NCBI RefSeq assembly: GCF_002920915.1 | Contig: NZ_PQVF01000004.1 | Location: 310,001-374,000, forward strand | Reading direction: 5' to 3' | From: Solitalea longa | GTDB taxonomy: Bacteria; Bacteroidota; Bacteroidia; Sphingobacteriales; Sphingobacteriaceae | Length of the DNA stretch: 64,000 nucleotides | Shown: piece after piece, positions 38,961 to 56,924 of the stretch | How the letters are laid out: each line of letters starts with the position of its first letter | Position numbering within the stretch: position 1 is the stretch's first letter | The notes under the pieces: model-generated | Database searches by the model: none | What the model saw: only the letters and a program-made list of their open reading frames with translations | Told to the model about the DNA's origin: nothing | Made by a program: the position numbers and the translations under genes

Positions 38961-40178
38961 CTACTCCTCTAACAACGTTTCATTGGTTTGTGCAGAAACG
39001 GATGTTTTCTTGTCTGCCTTATAAATAATTAAGTATCCTATGAGCCCGGATAAGACAGAGCCAGACAATACAGCGATCTTTGCAAAGTTTTGATTTTCAG
39101 GCTCAATAAATGCCAGGATAGAGATAAATATTGACATCGTAAACCCGATTCCACCTAAAAAACCAATACCAATCACTTTTTTAACGGAAACCTTTGAAGG
39201 CATTGTGGCTATACCCGATTTAATCGCCATAAACGAAAACCCCGCAATCCCCAAAGGTTTACCTAATAGTAACCCTAAAATAATTCCTAAGCCTAATTCT
39301 GTTCCATAAATATTTAGCAAGCTTCCGTCAAAAACAATACAGGTATTGGCCAAAGCAAACAATGGCATAATTATAAAGGATGAAAACTGATGCAGATTGT
39401 GCTCTAATATTTCTGCAGGTGAATAATCGCTATAATCAGACTCTAAAGGAATTGTAATGGCTAATAAAACTCCGGCAATGGTTGCATGCACTCCTGATTT
39501 CAACATGAAATACCACATAAAAACGCCACCTAATAAATAGATCATGACATTTCTAACCTTGAAATAGTTAAACGCCATAAGTATAGCAAAGATTGAAAGT
39601 GCTATGTACAGATTCTGAATCACAACGGTTTGTGTATACACCATAGCGATCACTAAAATGGCCCCTAAATCATCAACCACAGCAAGGGCTGTTAAAAACA
39701 CTTTCAAACTAATTGGAACACGTTTGCCCAACAAACTGAGAATTCCCAAGGCAAAAGCGATATCGGTAGCCATAGGGATTCCCCAGCCATGCTCTGTAGG
39801 GGTAGATTTATTAATGAGGAAATAGATTATGGCCGGTACAGCCATCCCACCCAAAGCCGCCACCATTGGAAGTGTGGCTTTCTTAACAGATGACAATTCA
39901 CCTTTTAACAGCTCCCGTTTTATTTCTAAACCAACAACCAGAAAAAAGATAACCATAAGGCCATCATTTATCCAGTGTTCAATACTGAGTGTAAACTCAG
40001 AACCAAAGCCTATAAATCCAACTTTCTGATGCCAAAAATAAAGATACTGCTCACTCAATGAAGAGTTGCTAGCCAACAAAGAAAGAATGGTACATAATAT
40101 AAGAATTACACCTGAGGCCTGTTCTGTTTGCAGAAAAGCTGTAAATGGCTTAAATATACCCTTATTAAAATGCCGCAT
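38961..40178 (-). CDS. nhaA: Na+/H+ antiporter NhaA
   Basis: 405 residues with twelve membrane segments in the NhaA order. HWINDGLMVIFFLVVGLEIKRE, PMVAALGGMAVPAIIYF, the Asp pair in ALAVVDDLGAILVIA (the sodium/proton site) and the MATDIAFALGILSLLG stretch are all present. It exchanges Na+ for H+ to keep cytoplasmic pH and sodium low. It is alone on its strand; its tail abuts the HPP gene. Confidence 0.95.
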   Translation of the reverse strand: MRHFNKGIFKPFTAFLQTEQASGVILILCTILSLLASNSSLSEQYLYFWHQKVGFIGFGSEFTLSIEHWINDGLMVIFFLVVGLEIKRELLKGELSSVKKATLPMVAALGGMAVPAIIYFLINKSTPTEHGWGIPMATDIAFALGILSLLGKRVPISLKVFLTALAVVDDLGAILVIAMVYTQTVVIQNLYIALSIFAILMAFNYFKVRNVMIYLLGGVFMWYFMLKSGVHATIAGVLLAITIPLESDYSDYSPAEILEHNLHQFSSFIIMPLFALANTCIVFDGSLLNIYGTELGLGIILGLLLGKPLGIAGFSFMAIKSGIATMPSKVSVKKVIGIGFLGGIGFTMSIFISILAFIEPENQNFAKIAVLSGSVLSGLIGYLIIYKADKKTSVSAQTNETLLEE

Positions 40179-40267: not shown

Positions 40268-41044
40268 TTACTCAATTATCGAAGCTACAAACTGTTTTAT
40301 TTTGGCGCCCTCAACTTTACTGCTTAAGGTTTTAACAAAGGCACTGCCGATTATAGCTCCATTTGCTGATGAGCAGGCTTTTTGAAAACTATTTTTGTCA
40401 TTGATACCAAAACCGATCATCAATGGATTATTCAGCTTTAAACTTTTCAAACGTTCGAAATATTTTTCGGTTTGCGACGCCTCAACCGCTAATTTATTAC
40501 CGGTAGTTGACGAAGAAGATAATGCGTAAATAAATCCACTGCTCAATTCATCAATTTTACGAATACGTTCATCAGAGCTTTGCGGAGTTATCAGAAATAT
40601 ATTGCTAAGATTATTGTTTTCAAAATGTTCCCTGTACAATTCTTCATATTCATACATTGGTAAATCAGGTACAATCACACCATCAACTCCAACCCTTGCA
40701 GCATCAGCGCAAAACTTTTCAACCCCATACTGCAAAACCGGATTTACATATCCCATTAAAATAATAGGAACAGAAATTTGCCGACGCAAGTTTTCCAGTT
40801 GCTTAAACAACACTTTAAGGCTCATACCGTTTTCTAAAGCCACATGGCTACTATGTTGAATAGTGGGTCCGTCAGCCACAGGATCAGAATAAGGGAATCC
40901 TATTTCCAAAAAATCAGCCCCTGCCTCTTCCAAAGCTTTCGCAATAACTAAGGTATCAGTAAGCTGTGGGTAGCCTGCGGTAAAATACACCGAAAGCAAG
41001 TCTTTATTTTTATTCTTGAATAATTCGATTAATCTGTTGTTCAT
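40268..41044 (-). CDS. trpA: tryptophan synthase alpha chain
   Basis: 258 residues, TIM barrel. Active-site EIGFPYSDPVADGPTIQ (Glu), GVIVPDLPMYEYEE (Asp of the catalytic site), and phosphate-binding GFGINDKNSF and GSAFVK. It cleaves indole-3-glycerol-phosphate to indole and glyceraldehyde-3-P and passes indole to TrpB. It is the last gene of trpD-F-B-A, 66 bases after trpB. Confidence 0.95.
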   Translation of the reverse strand: MNNRLIELFKNKNKDLLSVYFTAGYPQLTDTLVIAKALEEAGADFLEIGFPYSDPVADGPTIQHSSHVALENGMSLKVLFKQLENLRRQISVPIILMGYVNPVLQYGVEKFCADAARVGVDGVIVPDLPMYEYEELYREHFENNNLSNIFLITPQSSDERIRKIDELSSGFIYALSSSSTTGNKLAVEASQTEKYFERLKSLKLNNPLMIGFGINDKNSFQKACSSANGAIIGSAFVKTLSSKVEGAKIKQFVASIIE

Positions 41045-41110: not shown

Positions 41111-42307
41111 TTATAAGTTAAAATAATCCATATACGTTTGAAGATCTTTATCTCCCCGCCCCGACAAGCAAACCACCAGCTTTTCGTCACCTCTAAAAGT
41201 CATTTTCTCAAGGTAAGCTAAAGCATGAGAGGATTCAATAGCAGGAATAATACCTTCCAAGCGGGTTAATAAATGTGCCGCTTGCATGGCTTCATCATCT
41301 GTTACAGCTACATATTTACCACGACCGGTTTTAAATAAGTGCGCATGCTGAGGACCTATACCAGGATAATCTAATCCTGCTGATATAGAATGCGGCTCAA
41401 CCACCTGACCGTCTTCTGTTTGCATTAAAATAGAACGGCTTCCATGCAACACTCCTTCCTGACCCAAAATGGTAGTAGCTGCTGATTTACCCGAATCAAC
41501 ACCCAATCCTGCAGCTTCCGCCGCGATCAGTTGTACAGACTCATCCTCTAAAAAATGATAAAATGTCCCCATCGCATTACTTCCGCCGCCTACACAAGCC
41601 ATAACATAATCCGGAAGTTCAGAACCGGTTTTTTCTTTCAGCTGCTTTTTAATTTCAGCGCTTATCACCGATTGAAAACGAGCCACCATATCGGGATATG
41701 GATGAGGACCAACTACCGAACCGATTATATAATGCGTATCAACCGGGTTATTGATCCAATCGCGCATGGCTTCATTAGTGGCATCCTTTAAGGTTTTGCT
41801 TCCTGAGGTCGCAGGAACAACCTTTGCACCCAGCATTTTCATACGGGCAACATTTGGCGCCTGACGTTTAATGTCAATTTCACCCATATAAACTACGCAT
41901 TCAAGTCCGCGTAAGGCACAAACCGTGGCGGTTGCCACCCCATGCTGACCTGCTCCTGTTTCAGCAATAATTCGCTTTTTACCCAGTTTTTCGGCAAGTA
42001 AAATTTGGCCGATGGTATTATTAACCTTATGAGCACCAGTGTGATTCAAGTCCTCTCGTTTAAGGTAAATAGTGGTACCATAATGGGCCGATAGTCTTTT
42101 GGCATGAAAAAGAGGAGTTTCACGGCCAACATAATCCTTTAGCAATTCTCTGAACTCTTGTTGGAATGCAGGATCGTTTATAATGGATAAATAATTCTGA
42201 CGAAGCTCTTCTACATTCGGATATAGCATTTCCGGAATATATGCTCCTCCGAAATCACCGAAATAACCACGCTCATCTACGTAATAGTTTATTGCTGTTT
42301 TATTCAT
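41111..42307 (-). CDS. trpB: tryptophan synthase beta chain
   Basis: 398 residues. [12 protein letters not shown] start, the PLP-binding HTGAHKVNN (Lys near 95), ETGAGQHG catalytic loop and [11 protein letters not shown] phosphate-binding loop. It condenses indole with serine to tryptophan in a PLP-dependent reaction and forms the alpha2beta2 complex with TrpA. It follows trpF by 27 bases. Confidence 0.97.
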
Positions 42308-42334: not shown

Positions 42335-42958
42335 CTAAATGCCTTTAATTTTATCGATTGCTTCTTTAACTTTTTGGGTGTCTTTTAACCCGGGACTCAC
42401 TTCAAGTTTACTATTAAGATCAAGGCCATAAATAGGTAAACCATAATTTTGTATGGTGTTTACTTCATGTAAATTATCAAGTCCAATTCCGCCACTTAAA
42501 AAGAATGGTTTCGGCTCCTTATAATTTTTTAAAATATCCCAATTGAAAGTTTTACCCGTCCCGCCATGACTATCAGACTTTGTATCAAATAAGAAGGTAT
42601 CGCAGGAATCTTTATATCTTTTTAAGTCACTAAAATCAAACTCATTGTTAACACCAAATGCTTTGATCACTTCAACCGTTGCCGATTTAAACTGAGAACA
42701 GTAATCAGGCTTTTCATTGCCATGTAGTTGAACGGCATTAAAATCATAATCAGCCACAATTTCCAAAGCATCTTGCAATTTGGCATTTACAAAAACAGCC
42801 ACTTTTTTTATGGATGAGGGTATGGCTTTTAAAACCGAAAGATCATCAACATATCGTGGCGATTGGGGATAAAATATAAACCCCAGGTAATCGGGCTTTA
42901 GCTGTACTACATCCTCAATATTTTCGCGAAACTTCATTCCGCAGATCTTGATCTTCAT
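42335..42958 (-). CDS. trpF: phosphoribosylanthranilate isomerase
   Basis: 207 residues, TIM barrel starting MKIKICGMKFRENIED with the general-base Cys in CGM, VQLHGNE and the phosphate-binding FFLSGGIGLDN. It isomerises PRA to CdRP in the pathway. It begins one base after the stop codon of trpD, so translation is coupled. trpC, which normally sits between D and F, is absent here. Confidence 0.95.
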   Translation of the reverse strand: MKIKICGMKFRENIEDVVQLKPDYLGFIFYPQSPRYVDDLSVLKAIPSSIKKVAVFVNAKLQDALEIVADYDFNAVQLHGNEKPDYCSQFKSATVEVIKAFGVNNEFDFSDLKRYKDSCDTFLFDTKSDSHGGTGKTFNWDILKNYKEPKPFFLSGGIGLDNLHEVNTIQNYGLPIYGLDLNSKLEVSPGLKDTQKVKEAIDKIKGI

Positions 42959-42959
42959 T

Positions 42960-43961
42960 TTATGCTATAATGGTTTGTGATTCTAACAATTTCTTAAAGC
43001 TATTTAGTGCTTTTCCGGCGGTTAATGATTCTACTGCAATAGCGTAGCAATCATCGATGGATTTATTTCTTTCTCTGCATTTAATAGCCATTGCCGAATT
43101 AGCTAATACCGCTTTCTCTTGTGCTTCAGTTCCCTTATTGCTTAGTACGTTTGTAAATATTTCAGCCGATTCGGCAATTGTACCGCCACCAAACAAGGCT
43201 TCAGGCTTCAGGGCTGCTCCAAATAACGATGGATCATATAAAGCCTCACCGTCATTTGAAAAAACTTTAAAGGGAGCTGTTAATGAAATCTCATCATATC
43301 CTGTTAAGGTATGTATGATCATATATTGTTTTTCGGTTTTCTGATAGAGGTACGCATATAAGCGAGCTAATTCAAGGCTGAAAACACCTAAAAACTGATA
43401 CTTTGGAGCGGCCGGGTTTACCATTGGCCCCAGCATGTTAAAGAACGTTTTTACCCCCAGTTCCTTGCGTATGGGAGCCACCGTTTTCATTGCAGGATGG
43501 AATAGTGGAGCATGCAAAAAGCAGATATTGGCTTCATTCAATGATCGTTTTAAGCTATCGGCATTGTTAGTGAACCGATACCCCAGATACTCCATAACAT
43601 TTGAAGAACCGCAAGCCGAAGAAACGCCATAATTACCATGTTTGGAAACTTTATAGCCTGCTCCCGCCACCACAAAAGAAGAAAGCGTGGAAATATTAAA
43701 GGTGTCTTTACCGTCGCCACCGGTTCCAACCAAATCGATCAGCTCTTCCGAAGGCAGATCAATAGGTAAGCAAAGTTCAAGCATTGCATCCCTGAACCCT
43801 TCCAGCTCATCCACTGTAATGCTTCTCATACAATAGGCGGTCATGAAAGAGGCCATCTGCGAAGTATTATAAGCTCCTGAAGCCAGATCTATTAAAATCT
43901 CCTTCGATTCTGCTTTTGAAAAGGTTTGCCCTTCGAATAAATGGGTAAGTATTTTTTTCAT
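42960..43961 (-). CDS. trpD: anthranilate phosphoribosyltransferase
   Basis: 333 residues. The PRPP loop LVGTGGDGKDTFNISTLSS, KHGNYGVSSACGSSNVMEYLG and NMLGPMVNPA match TrpD. It attaches phosphoribose to anthranilate. As first structural gene of the local operon it follows a complete attenuator (44028-44157). trpE and trpG, which make anthranilate, are not nearby. Confidence 0.96.
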   Translation of the reverse strand: MKKILTHLFEGQTFSKAESKEILIDLASGAYNTSQMASFMTAYCMRSITVDELEGFRDAMLELCLPIDLPSEELIDLVGTGGDGKDTFNISTLSSFVVAGAGYKVSKHGNYGVSSACGSSNVMEYLGYRFTNNADSLKRSLNEANICFLHAPLFHPAMKTVAPIRKELGVKTFFNMLGPMVNPAAPKYQFLGVFSLELARLYAYLYQKTEKQYMIIHTLTGYDEISLTAPFKVFSNDGEALYDPSLFGAALKPEALFGGGTIAESAEIFTNVLSNKGTEAQEKAVLANSAMAIKCRERNKSIDDCYAIAVESLTAGKALNSFKKLLESQTIIA

Positions 43962-44028
43962 TTTCTTTAAGCTGCTTATGCTTTTGTTAGTTAATCTAAA
44001 ATACGATGTAGTTTAATGCTGCAGACAC

Positions 44029-44057
44029 AAAAAAAGGGTTGCCTTAAGGCAACCCTT
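44029..44057 (-). terminator. attenuator terminator of the trp leader
   Basis: On the minus strand AAGGGTTGCC (44057-44048) pairs with GGCAACCCTT (44043-44034), loop TTAA, followed by a T-run (44033-44029). It lies about 70 bases before trpD. Its first arm (GGTTGCC) can instead pair with GGTAACC at 44102-44096 around the leader stop codon. Confidence 0.88.
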
Positions 44058-44095
44058 CATAAAAGTATCTTGATAGTTTTATTAAATGACAAGGA

Positions 44096-44102
44096 GGTTA
44101 CC
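44096..44102 (-). promoter_or_regulatory. antiterminator arm overlapping the leader stop codon
   Basis: Minus-strand GGTAACC spans the last codon (GG of CGG), TAA and CC. It pairs with GGTTGCC of the terminator in seven positions (one G-U). A ribosome on the stop codon would cover it; one stalled at the Trp codons would leave it free. Confidence 0.7.
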
Positions 44103-44157
44103 GTCCGCAATTTATGCAGCGCCACCACCAAATGTTATTTAATACTGTGTGTTTCAT
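44098..44157 (-). CDS. trpL: trp operon leader peptide
   Basis: A 19-residue frame, MKHTVLNNIWWWRCINCGR, too short for the usual search. Codons 10-12 are three consecutive TGG (Trp). Position, length and the terminator and antiterminator downstream mark it as a translated attenuator peptide that senses charged tRNA-Trp. It has no close Shine-Dalgarno site; predicted transcription starts about five bases before its ATG. Peptide itself probably has no function beyond stalling. Confidence 0.88.
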   Translation of the reverse strand: MKHTVLNNIWWWRCINCGR

Positions 44158-44168
44158 TTCGATTTTTT

Positions 44169-44200
44169 CAAATATGAATAATCTGTTTTTAAAATGCAAA
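44169..44200 (-). promoter_or_regulatory. probable trp operon promoter
   Basis: On the minus strand TTTG (44200-44197), a 20-base spacer and CATATTTG (44176-44169), which differs from TAnnTTTG in one base. Start would be near 44162. Confidence 0.55.
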
Positions 44201-44384: not shown

Positions 44385-45272
44385 ATGTCTAGCAAAAGTA
44401 AAACGATACGTCGACTTAATGTCCGTTCAAACATCAATGCCGTCCTACTTATTGTTTTGGGAGTATTTTCTGCTGCCTTTGGGCTAAAAAGCTTTTTAAT
44501 TCCCAATGGATTTATTGATGGTGGAGTTACCGGTATTTCCCTTTTGATCAATCATGTTACACATATTCCTTTTTCAATTCTGATCTTCACCTTAAACATT
44601 CCCTTTATCATTGTCGGCTACAAGCAAATAGGAAAAAAATTCGCTTTACTAACATTTTGCGCTATTACAGGTTTAGCCTTGGTCGTGTCAACAATCAACT
44701 TCCAGGTAATTACCTCCGACAAACTACTTATCTCCATATTCGGCGGGTTCTTTCTTGGAGGTGGTATTGGTCTTGCTGTTAGAGGAGGCGCAGTAATTGA
44801 CGGCACCGAAATTCTGGCCGTTTACATCACCCGTAAATCAGCCCTTACCATTGGCGACACGATTTTAATCATCAACATCTTAATATTTACCGTTGCGGCC
44901 TTTTTATTAGGAATTGAAGCAGCCATGTACTCCATACTTACCTATCTTTCGGCATCAAAAACAGTTGATTTTATTATCCAGGGTATTGAAGAGTACACCG
45001 GTGTCACCATCATTTCTATCAAAAGCACTGAGATCAAGGAAGCGATCATTAATAAACTTGGACGTGGTGTTACCATTTATAAAGGCGAACGCGGCTTTGG
45101 ATCAGGCGTTTATCAAAATAAAGAAATTGATATTGTTTTTACAGTCATTACCCGCCTGGAGATTTCGAAATTAAGATCAGAAATTGAAAAGATCGACCCA
45201 AGGGCATTTGTGATCATGCACAGTATCAACGAGACAAAAGGTGGGATTATTAAACGCCGACCTTTGCACTAG
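44385..45272 (+). CDS. YitT-family membrane protein (DUF161/DUF2179)
   Basis: 295 residues. About five to six membrane segments in the N-terminal two thirds (FGLKSFLIPNGFIDGGVTGISLLI is the family start, GGIGLAVRGGAVIDGTEILAVY follows), then the soluble DUF2179 ligand domain (GVTIYKGERGFGSGVYQNKEIDIVFTVI). Such proteins are conserved in Firmicutes and Bacteroidota and their function is unknown. It is 34 bases upstream of the channel gene, likely in one operon. Confidence 0.88.
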   Translation: MSSKSKTIRRLNVRSNINAVLLIVLGVFSAAFGLKSFLIPNGFIDGGVTGISLLINHVTHIPFSILIFTLNIPFIIVGYKQIGKKFALLTFCAITGLALVVSTINFQVITSDKLLISIFGGFFLGGGIGLAVRGGAVIDGTEILAVYITRKSALTIGDTILIINILIFTVAAFLLGIEAAMYSILTYLSASKTVDFIIQGIEEYTGVTIISIKSTEIKEAIINKLGRGVTIYKGERGFGSGVYQNKEIDIVFTVITRLEISKLRSEIEKIDPRAFVIMHSINETKGGIIKRRPLH

Positions 45273-56136: not shown

Positions 56137-56209
56137 GCGAAAGTAGCTCAGTTGGTAGAGCACAACCTTGCCAAGGTTGGGGTCGCGAGTTCGAATCTCG
56201 TCTTTCGCT
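56137..56209 (+). tRNA. tRNA-Gly (anticodon GCC), copy 1
   Basis: 73 bases without encoded CCA. Acceptor GCGAAAG/CTTTCGC, D-stem GCTC/GAGC, anticodon stem CAACC/GGTTG with loop TTGCCAA (anticodon GCC), T-loop TTCGAAT. Discriminator T. Confidence 0.97.
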
Positions 56210-56252
56210 CTAAAAGAAAACGTTCTTTTACAGTCTTACAAAAATTAAAAAA

Positions 56253-56325
56253 GCGAAAGTAGCTCAGTTGGTAGAGCACAACCTTGCCAAGGTTGGGGTC
56301 GCGAGTTCGAATCTCGTCTTTCGCT
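56253..56325 (+). tRNA. tRNA-Gly (GCC), copy 2
   Basis: Identical to copy 1; the repeat period is 116 bases and the spacer is also conserved. Confidence 0.97.
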
Positions 56326-56368
56326 CTCAAAGAAAACGTTCTTTTACAGTCTTACAAAAATTAAAAAA

Positions 56369-56441
56369 GCGAAAGTAGCTCAGTTGGTAGAGCACAACCT
56401 TGCCAAGGTTGGGGTCGCGAGTTCGAATCTCGTCTTTCGCT
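56369..56441 (+). tRNA. tRNA-Gly (GCC), copy 3
   Basis: Identical in sequence and period (116) to copy 2, including the AAAGAAAACGTTCTTTT spacer part. Confidence 0.97.
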
Positions 56442-56484
56442 CTCAAAGAAAACGTTCTTTTACAGTCTTACAAAAATTAAAAAA

Positions 56485-56557
56485 GCGAAAGTAGCTCAGT
56501 TGGTAGAGCACAACCTTGCCAAGGTTGGGGTCGCGAGTTCGAATCTCGTCTTTCGCT
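56485..56557 (+). tRNA. tRNA-Gly (GCC), copy 4
   Basis: Fourth tandem copy, identical body; the spacer downstream then changes to lead into tRNA-Leu. Confidence 0.97.
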
Positions 56558-56573
56558 CTCTTTTAACAAGGCT

Positions 56574-56658
56574 GCCTTGGTGGTGGAACTGGTAGACACG
56601 CAGGACTTAAAATCCTGTGGCCGTTAAGGCCGTGCGGGTTCGATTCCCGCCTGAGGTA
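56574..56658 (+). tRNA. tRNA-Leu (anticodon TAA), copy 1
   Basis: About 85 bases with a long variable arm (TGGCCGTTAAGGCCGT), anticodon loop CTTAAAA (TAA) on stem CAGGA/TCCTG, T-stem GCGGG/CCCGC. Acceptor GCCTTGG pairs with CTGAGGT using G-U pairs. Exact ends are uncertain by one base. Confidence 0.93.
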
Positions 56659-56719
56659 CAAATTTCGGAAACGTCCGAGATTTAAAGAGCTTGAAAGACA
56701 GCTCTTATTTAATTTTAAT

Positions 56720-56792
56720 GCGAAAGTAGCTCAGTTGGTAGAGCACAACCTTGCCAAGGTTGGGGTCGCGAGTTCGAATCTCGTCTTTCGCT
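56720..56792 (+). tRNA. tRNA-Gly (GCC), copy 5
   Basis: Same 73-base sequence as the tandem copies but in a different context, between the two tRNA-Leu genes. Confidence 0.97.
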
Positions 56793-56826
56793 CTTAATTG
56801 TTCTTACAATTATTGGGTAAGTACCC

Positions 56827-56911
56827 GCCCTGGTGGTGGAACTGGTAGACACGCAGGACTTAAAATCCTGTGGCCGTTAAGGCCGTGCGGGTTCGATTCC
56901 CGCCTGGGGTA
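56827..56911 (+). tRNA. tRNA-Leu (TAA), copy 2
   Basis: Same body as copy 1 except that base pair 4:69 of the acceptor is C-G (GCCCTGG/CTGGGGT) rather than T-A. Ends uncertain by one base. Confidence 0.94.
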
Positions 56912-56924
56912 CAAAATCAAAGTT

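Follow-up and report, generated by a model that had tools for sequence, protein, structure and literature searches.

How would a bacterium with no match to either TrpR or TRAP adjust the expression of its tryptophan genes to the supply of tryptophan? The question is raised by the window analysed here, a stretch of 64,000 nucleotides from Solitalea longa (contig NZ_PQVF01000004.1, positions 310,001 to 374,000), in which a trpD-F-B-A run without trpC lies on the minus strand; trpE, trpG and trpC are found together on another contig (trpG and trpC were named by eye from sequence). Control by TRAP or TrpR was rejected because neither mtrB (PF02081) nor trpR (PF01371) had a match in the genome, which is 99.99% complete; the control searches were positive for PF02081 in B. 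subtilis and for PF01371 in both E. coli and B. subtilis. Read on the minus strand from 44200 to 43962, the window presents a Bacteroidota-type promoter box, an ORF with Trp codons, an intrinsic terminator and then trpD. We consider it very probable, from this arrangement and the comparative analyses below, that the leader is a ribosome-mediated transcription attenuator tying expression of trpD-F-B-A to charged tRNA-Trp. Its parts and the genes behind it are as follows.

44197 to 44200, minus strand: TTTG, candidate -33 element, 20 nt upstream of the -7 box
44169 to 44176, minus strand: -7 promoter box CATATTTG, from sequence, one mismatch to TAnnTTTG
44098 to 44157, minus strand: leader peptide ORF MKHTVLNNIWWWRCINCGR, 19 codons, from ATG at 44157 to the TAA stop at 44098
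44122 to 44130, minus strand: three consecutive Trp codons (TGG), from sequence; the regulatory codons, region 1
44094 to 44103, minus strand: region 2, CGGTAACCTC, spanning the stop codon of the leader and forming the 5′ half of the antiterminator
44047 to 44056, minus strand: region 3, AGGGTTGCCT, serving both as the 5′ arm of the terminator and as the 3′ half of the antiterminator
44029 to 44058, minus strand: intrinsic terminator with an 11-pair stem, TTAA loop and T-run, from a terminator scan
42960 to 43961, minus strand: trpD, anthranilate phosphoribosyltransferase, first structural gene (TIGR01245, 303.8 bits, cut-off 199)
42335 to 42958, minus strand: trpF, phosphoribosylanthranilate isomerase (best NCBIfam match E 1.1e-50, 172 bits, below the model cut-off of 215)
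41111 to 42307, minus strand: trpB, tryptophan synthase beta (TIGR00263, 597.8 bits, cut-off 392)
40268 to 41044, minus strand: trpA, tryptophan synthase alpha (TIGR00262, 228.6 bits, cut-off 102)

The short ORF holds cognate tandem codons (WWW), and the terminator stands between this ORF and trpD. GGTAACC, which occupies 44102-44096 and includes the TAA stop, faces GGTTGCC at 44054-44048 within the 5′ arm of the terminator, whose stem (GAAGGGTTGCC/GGCAACCCTTT) occupies 44058-44033 and whose T-run reaches 44029. These elements bear out the preliminary description of the locus, which had listed a 19-residue leader with three Trp codons at 44130-44122 (directly visible in the sequence), a strong terminator with a T-run, pairing of GGTAACC around the leader stop with GGTTGCC of the terminator (an 8-pair duplex when computed), a distance of 20-34 nt from the Trp codons to GGTAACC, and a promoter-like pair, which we read as of Bacteroidota type with CATATTTG at -7 and TTTG at 44200-44197. 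Promoters of this type are outside the scope of the sigma-70 promoter scan. The terminator was by far the strongest of four terminator-like sites between 40000 and 48000 (11 pairs vs 7, 5 and 5), a number of sites that does not exceed the shuffle expectation (mean 7.4), and the leader as a whole folded better than 200 of 200 shuffles (z -5.1). Chance occurrence of the Trp triplet was discarded as evidence, since TGGTGGTGG is common in this genome; its 83 sites compare with 82 for the reversed pattern, so that the excess over chance resides in the arrangement and its conservation and not in the triplet.

The gene upstream of the leader (44385-45272, plus strand) is divergent, which makes the leader promoter the likely source of transcription into the operon. 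At the other end, trpA is followed on its own strand, after a gap of 89 nt, by the Na+/H+ antiporter gene nhaA (38961-40178), with no terminator-like site listed in the gap by a scan that covered 40000 onward; in 13 of the relatives' 80 loci (best 80 of 589) an nhaA relative occurs downstream of trpD but points the other way. Elsewhere in the window, a seven-gene tRNA array at 56137-56912 consists of five tRNA-Gly(GCC) and two tRNA-Leu(TAA) genes, the starts of the first four Gly copies being exactly 116 nt apart.

If these elements act as an attenuator, its parts should be kept together in relatives, and the preliminary description had named homologous leaders in which Trp codons and terminator were both absent as the observation that would speak against it. 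Both were retained at 79 of 80 named trpD loci, a figure that describes near relatives because the best 80 of 589 confirmed loci were kept; the closest TrpD among these named genomes is that of Mucilaginibacter, at no more than 70% identity, with Pedobacter lower. The count comprises 74 loci found by script, L022 (with a GTG start) and L047 by a second scan, and L073, L064 and L078 by eye. The start codon of L073 lies beyond the contig end, and in L064 and L078, where trpE-G-D are contiguous, the leader precedes trpE and not trpD. The sole exception among the 80, L042, had no leader in the 1271 bases examined before trpD. In L022 the leader ATG reads ATA, while the closely similar L014 has ATG; the L022 frame can begin at a GTG two codons on, and the remaining attenuator is intact. 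The leader peptides of the three genus-mates are MKQTVLNNIWWWRCINCGR, MKQTVLNNNWWWRSITCIR and MKQNVLNNNWWWRCINCGR.

We aligned 35 of 73 trpD leaders, picked for diversity, with the Cytophagia-type leaders L068, L072, L081, L084 and L087 outside those 73. Three Trp codons are present in 34 of the 35, and two in L021. A covariance model built from these 35 leaders (R1) matched all 101 genomes of the order at E<=0.01. Adjacency was checked in 61 of them: in 60 the best match precedes trpD by 5-388 nt and shares its strand, and in the other (G016) it was on a different contig from trpD. The duplex, spacing and footprint-fold statistics given below cover 33 of 33 trpE leaders and 78 trpD leaders, namely four of the genus, the window's included, and 74 of the 80 named (L041, L042, L064, L069, L073 and L078 are outside this set); L163 (G079) was left out of the analyses.

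The other half of the pathway carries a leader of its own. Before trpE of the same genome (contig C2, L090/L111) we found the leader peptide MNNKNTNIFAWWRCNN followed by a separate terminator, GAAGCTTGTCGCACTGCGGCAAGCTTT. All 30 trpE loci fetched, the window's genome included, have such leaders (28 with tandem Trp codons, two with Trp-Leu-Trp), as do the three genus-mates. A model (R2) of the trpE leaders, of which 29 of 33 entered the alignment, matched 84 of 101 genomes at E<=0.001. Its matches occurred in 52 of the 61 genomes with trpE coordinates, and in these 52, out of the 84 genomes matched, adjacency was checked and every match sat 13-131 nt before trpE; the remaining nine have leaders with three consecutive Trp codons or Trp-x-Trp, their terminators being judged by eye. 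A Trp-codon leader thus precedes trpE in 61 of 61 genomes of the order. Regions 2 and 3 of the trpE leaders differ in sequence from those of the trpD leaders and the layout is the same. A search of this genome for leaders with His runs returned two runs of five His codons, neither of them at a locus that resembles a his operon by eye.

Switching would require that regions 2 and 3 pair with each other in one state and that the terminator forms in the other. In the window the 2:3 duplex has 8 pairs and -12.8 kcal/mol and is only moderately better than chance (10 of 200 shuffles as good, z -1.7); in the three genus-mates 0, 2 and 0 of 200 shuffles did as well. It was equalled by at most 10 of 200 shuffles in 51 of 78 trpD and 24 of 33 trpE leaders, and was less clear in the others. 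Across 35 relatives the eight core pairs of the terminator are formed in 98.6% of alignment cells, with double changes at four of the eight, so on sequence grounds the terminator covaries. The antiterminator pairs in 86.8% of cells of the same alignment vs 26-50% for slid controls. Covariation was not obtained as proof of the antiterminator within the trpD family, where double compensatory changes occur in just two cells and 201 of 500 shuffles reach the covariation score; its support consists of the pairing relative to slid controls, the footprint control described below and the unlike sequences that serve in other clades (e.g., L068, L081 and L087). Swapping region 2 between species had a small cost in trpD leaders (-12.3 native vs -11.3 swapped) and a greater one in trpE leaders (-14.4 vs -11.5). 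A hairpin between the Trp-codon region and the segment that follows it appears in the whole-leader fold and, with several non-standard pairs, in the full-length alignment to the Rfam family RF01692; folded alone, this 1:2 region was barely better than shuffles (z -0.7 and -1.7).

The spacing of these parts follows the Trp codons more closely than the stop codon. In the 78 trpD leaders region 2 starts at a median of 17 nt from the last Trp codon, with an sd of 2.2, and in the 33 trpE leaders at a median of 13 nt, with an sd of 4.2; its separation from the stop codon is less uniform (sd 5.6 for trpD and 11.6 for trpE). This is as expected if region 2 must stay clear of a stalled ribosome, whose footprint, according to published work, extends about 12 nt beyond the codon (PMC4833913). 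We therefore folded, at equilibrium, only the RNA beyond the footprint. For the window, placing the ribosome on the Trp codons gave an antiterminator value of 0.98-0.99, placing it at the stop gave 0.15, and omitting it gave 0.24; the difference between the two ribosome positions was equalled by 1 of 50 shuffles. The model thus predicts what the preliminary description had proposed, a terminator when the ribosome is on the stop codon and an antiterminator when it is stalled at the Trp codons. The stalled state exceeded the stop state by more than 0.2 in 68 of 78 trpD and 32 of 33 trpE leaders and was lower in none, and the mean differences of 0.56 and 0.72 compare with 0.10 and 0.15 for shuffled middle segments. 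In the three genus-mates the antiterminator stays high at the stop codon (0.91, 0.71 and 0.95), and 19, 6 and 22 of 50 shuffles separate the states equally well or better. That the antiterminator excludes the terminator and is freed by stalling is in the window a computed result, the pairing being kept in relatives and the states weakly separated in these three. An equilibrium fold ignores timing, and the poor separation in the genus-mates therefore weakens the model and not the pairing.

Taken as an attenuator, the leader would work as follows. Transcription would begin some 7 nt ahead of the leader AUG, and the RNA would take on a ribosome almost at its 5′ end. When Trp-tRNA is plentiful, this ribosome would reach the UAA and cover region 2 (GGUAACC), the 3:4 terminator would form and the RNA would end near 44029. 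When Trp-tRNA is scarce, the ribosome would stall on the three Trp codons with region 2 just beyond its footprint; region 2 would then pair with the 5′ arm of the terminator (2:3), and RNA polymerase would continue into trpD. As an attenuator of the same layout precedes trpE-trpG-trpC, the two parts of the split pathway would be expected to answer to one and the same signal.

The position of the promoter relative to the start codon is itself conserved. The -7 box of F. psychrophilum is given as mapped at -12 to -5 relative to the start site (PMC9723704), and placing CATATTTG in the same way predicts a transcription start at about 44164 and a 5′ UTR some 7 nt long. A box that departs from TAnnTTTG at one position at most occurs 4-13 nt before the leader start in 69 of 78 trpD and 33 of 33 trpE leaders, and before 144 of 841 ORF starts in a control that includes operon-internal genes and uncertain starts. 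The claim of the preliminary description that the predicted start leaves the peptide nearly leaderless accordingly holds well beyond the window, in that box placement is kept. With the box taken as -12 to -5, this spacing predicts conserved leader 5′ UTRs of 0-9 nt; the medians stated for F. psychrophilum and B. thetaiotaomicron are 24 and 32 nt, and only about 3.7% of B. thetaiotaomicron 5′ UTRs are given as shorter than 10 nt (PMC9723704, PMC7366714). Among the nine trpD leaders without a box at 4-13 nt, seven have it at 14-17 nt and L084 at 32 nt; L087, with none within one mismatch, has a tRNA gene in front of its leader. In Spirosoma, Larkinella and Rudanella (L069:2867-3061, L081:411-593, L087:357-499) the leader peptide begins 14-24 nt behind a tRNA-Pro(CGG) gene. 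As a -7-like box (2867-2874) precedes the tRNA in L069 and there is no promoter room between tRNA and leader, the sequence suggests a tRNA-leader-trp co-transcript in which the 5′ end of the leader comes from tRNA processing. A tRNA search found no tRNA gene in Dyadobacter L084.

A second conserved property lies in the peptide. Among 70 distinct trpD leaders, the Asn-rich stretch before the Trp codons (44131-44157 in the window) has Asn at codon -3 in 54, at codon -2 in 42 and at codon -1 in 40. The split at codon -3 between AAT (31) and AAC (23) indicates that it is the residue, rather than the codon, that seems to be kept. More speculatively, and we hold this as a tentative idea, tryptophan synthesis in Sphingobacteriaceae may be set, with neither TrpR nor TRAP involved, by a parallel pair of unlike attenuators, both sharing a dedicated near-leaderless start at which the ribosome loads without Shine-Dalgarno pairing as the RNA emerges, with the Asn-rich stretch tuning the stall through the nascent peptide.

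The conserved residues could also be taken to mean that what the leader senses is free tryptophan, or some other trans factor, through TnaC-like nascent-peptide stalling, TRAP or a riboswitch, and not charged tRNA-Trp. Conservation of the amino acids flanking the Trp codons, such as Asn at -3, speaks for such sensing; however, the Trp codons stand in tandem and region 2 begins just beyond the footprint of the stalled ribosome, which suits stalling at codons, the genome has no match to the TRAP family, and leaders of the TnaC type respond to free Trp by induction, which would be the wrong response for a biosynthetic operon. We regard this alternative as improbable. Still less credit is due to the idea that the terminator ends transcription constitutively and that the Trp-rich ORF is incidental. 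The 83 genomic sites of TGGTGGTGG speak for a fortuitous triplet, but Trp codons, region 2 spacing and terminator are kept together, and the divergent upstream gene delivers no incoming transcript for a constitutive terminator to end.

A further proposal would supplement attenuation by charged tRNA-Trp instead of replacing it: the released leader RNA or peptide may also act in trans, like rnTrpL/peTrpL of S. meliloti. The near-leaderless architecture, similar to the S. meliloti trpL described with an RNA starting at the ATG (PMC7298713), and the conserved Asn-rich peptide would suit such a role, but attenuation alone accounts for most of the conserved parts, and we think an additional trans function unlikely, if less so than the two alternatives above.

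The class to which the trpD leader belongs is already known; the leader is a divergent orthologue of Bacteroid-trp (RF01692), with which it shares the phylum, the trp gene context, a Trp-codon ORF and the position before trpD. Divergence is evident from the score of 31.7 bits, below the gathering cut-off of 49 (E 0.099 in a 501-base search), and an Rfam scan of the window at the gathering cut-off gave no Bacteroid-trp match at the leader. Other Rfam matches at the locus (tsr26 with 32.0 bits vs a cut-off of 141, and 14 others) were below cut-off and taken as chance. Of 151 genomes of the order, only 4 contain a match to RF01692 above the cut-off; 20 of the 23 matches to this model in the order were fetched, and trpD is directly next in 19 of these, the piece containing the other (L092) being too short for the gene. 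The trpE leaders differ from Bacteroid-trp further, as 15 of 15 trpE loci tested at E<=0.5 gave no match to it or to another trp leader in Rfam. Bacteroid-trp was listed as a probable cis-regulatory RNA of Bacteroidetes by Weinberg et al. 2010 (PMC2864571), is described as resembling the E. coli trp leader in structure and as being conserved ahead of the F. psychrophilum trp operon (PMC6414381), and a transcriptome study of that species reports strong indications that operons for amino-acid biosynthesis are preceded by leader-peptide attenuators (PMC9723704). To this motif and these brief remarks our analysis adds comparative evidence that trp genes in Bacteroidota are under ribosome-stalling attenuation of the classic kind. 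Newer and less expected are the twin leader before trpE and the conservation of the near-leaderless start; a literature search with most subscription journals outside its reach returned no account of paired trpE and trpD leaders in Sphingobacteriaceae.

In enterobacterial trpL (Rfam Trp_leader), tandem Trp codons are followed by a mutually exclusive antiterminator and terminator before the trp genes, and the window shares these features, the resemblance being one of layout. Bacteroidota mRNAs lack Shine-Dalgarno sequences, and the predicted 5′ UTR of about 7 nt in the window, unlike the enterobacterial leader, offers little room for one; there is also no TrpR match, and the pathway is split with an attenuator on each half. 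Olekhnovich and Gussin are said to have described, in 2001, attenuators of trpE and trpGDC in Pseudomonas putida, which likewise combines a split pathway with attenuation on more than one operon, although in another phylum and with another pathway split. A known leaderless parallel is Sinorhizobium meliloti trpL, whose leader RNA is reported to start at the AUG with attenuation before trpE(G); that species is described as attenuating only one of its three trp operons (PMC7298713), whereas here both halves of the pathway carry attenuators, and the system offers a simple case for asking how coupling works when the leader peptide begins a few bases from the 5′ end.
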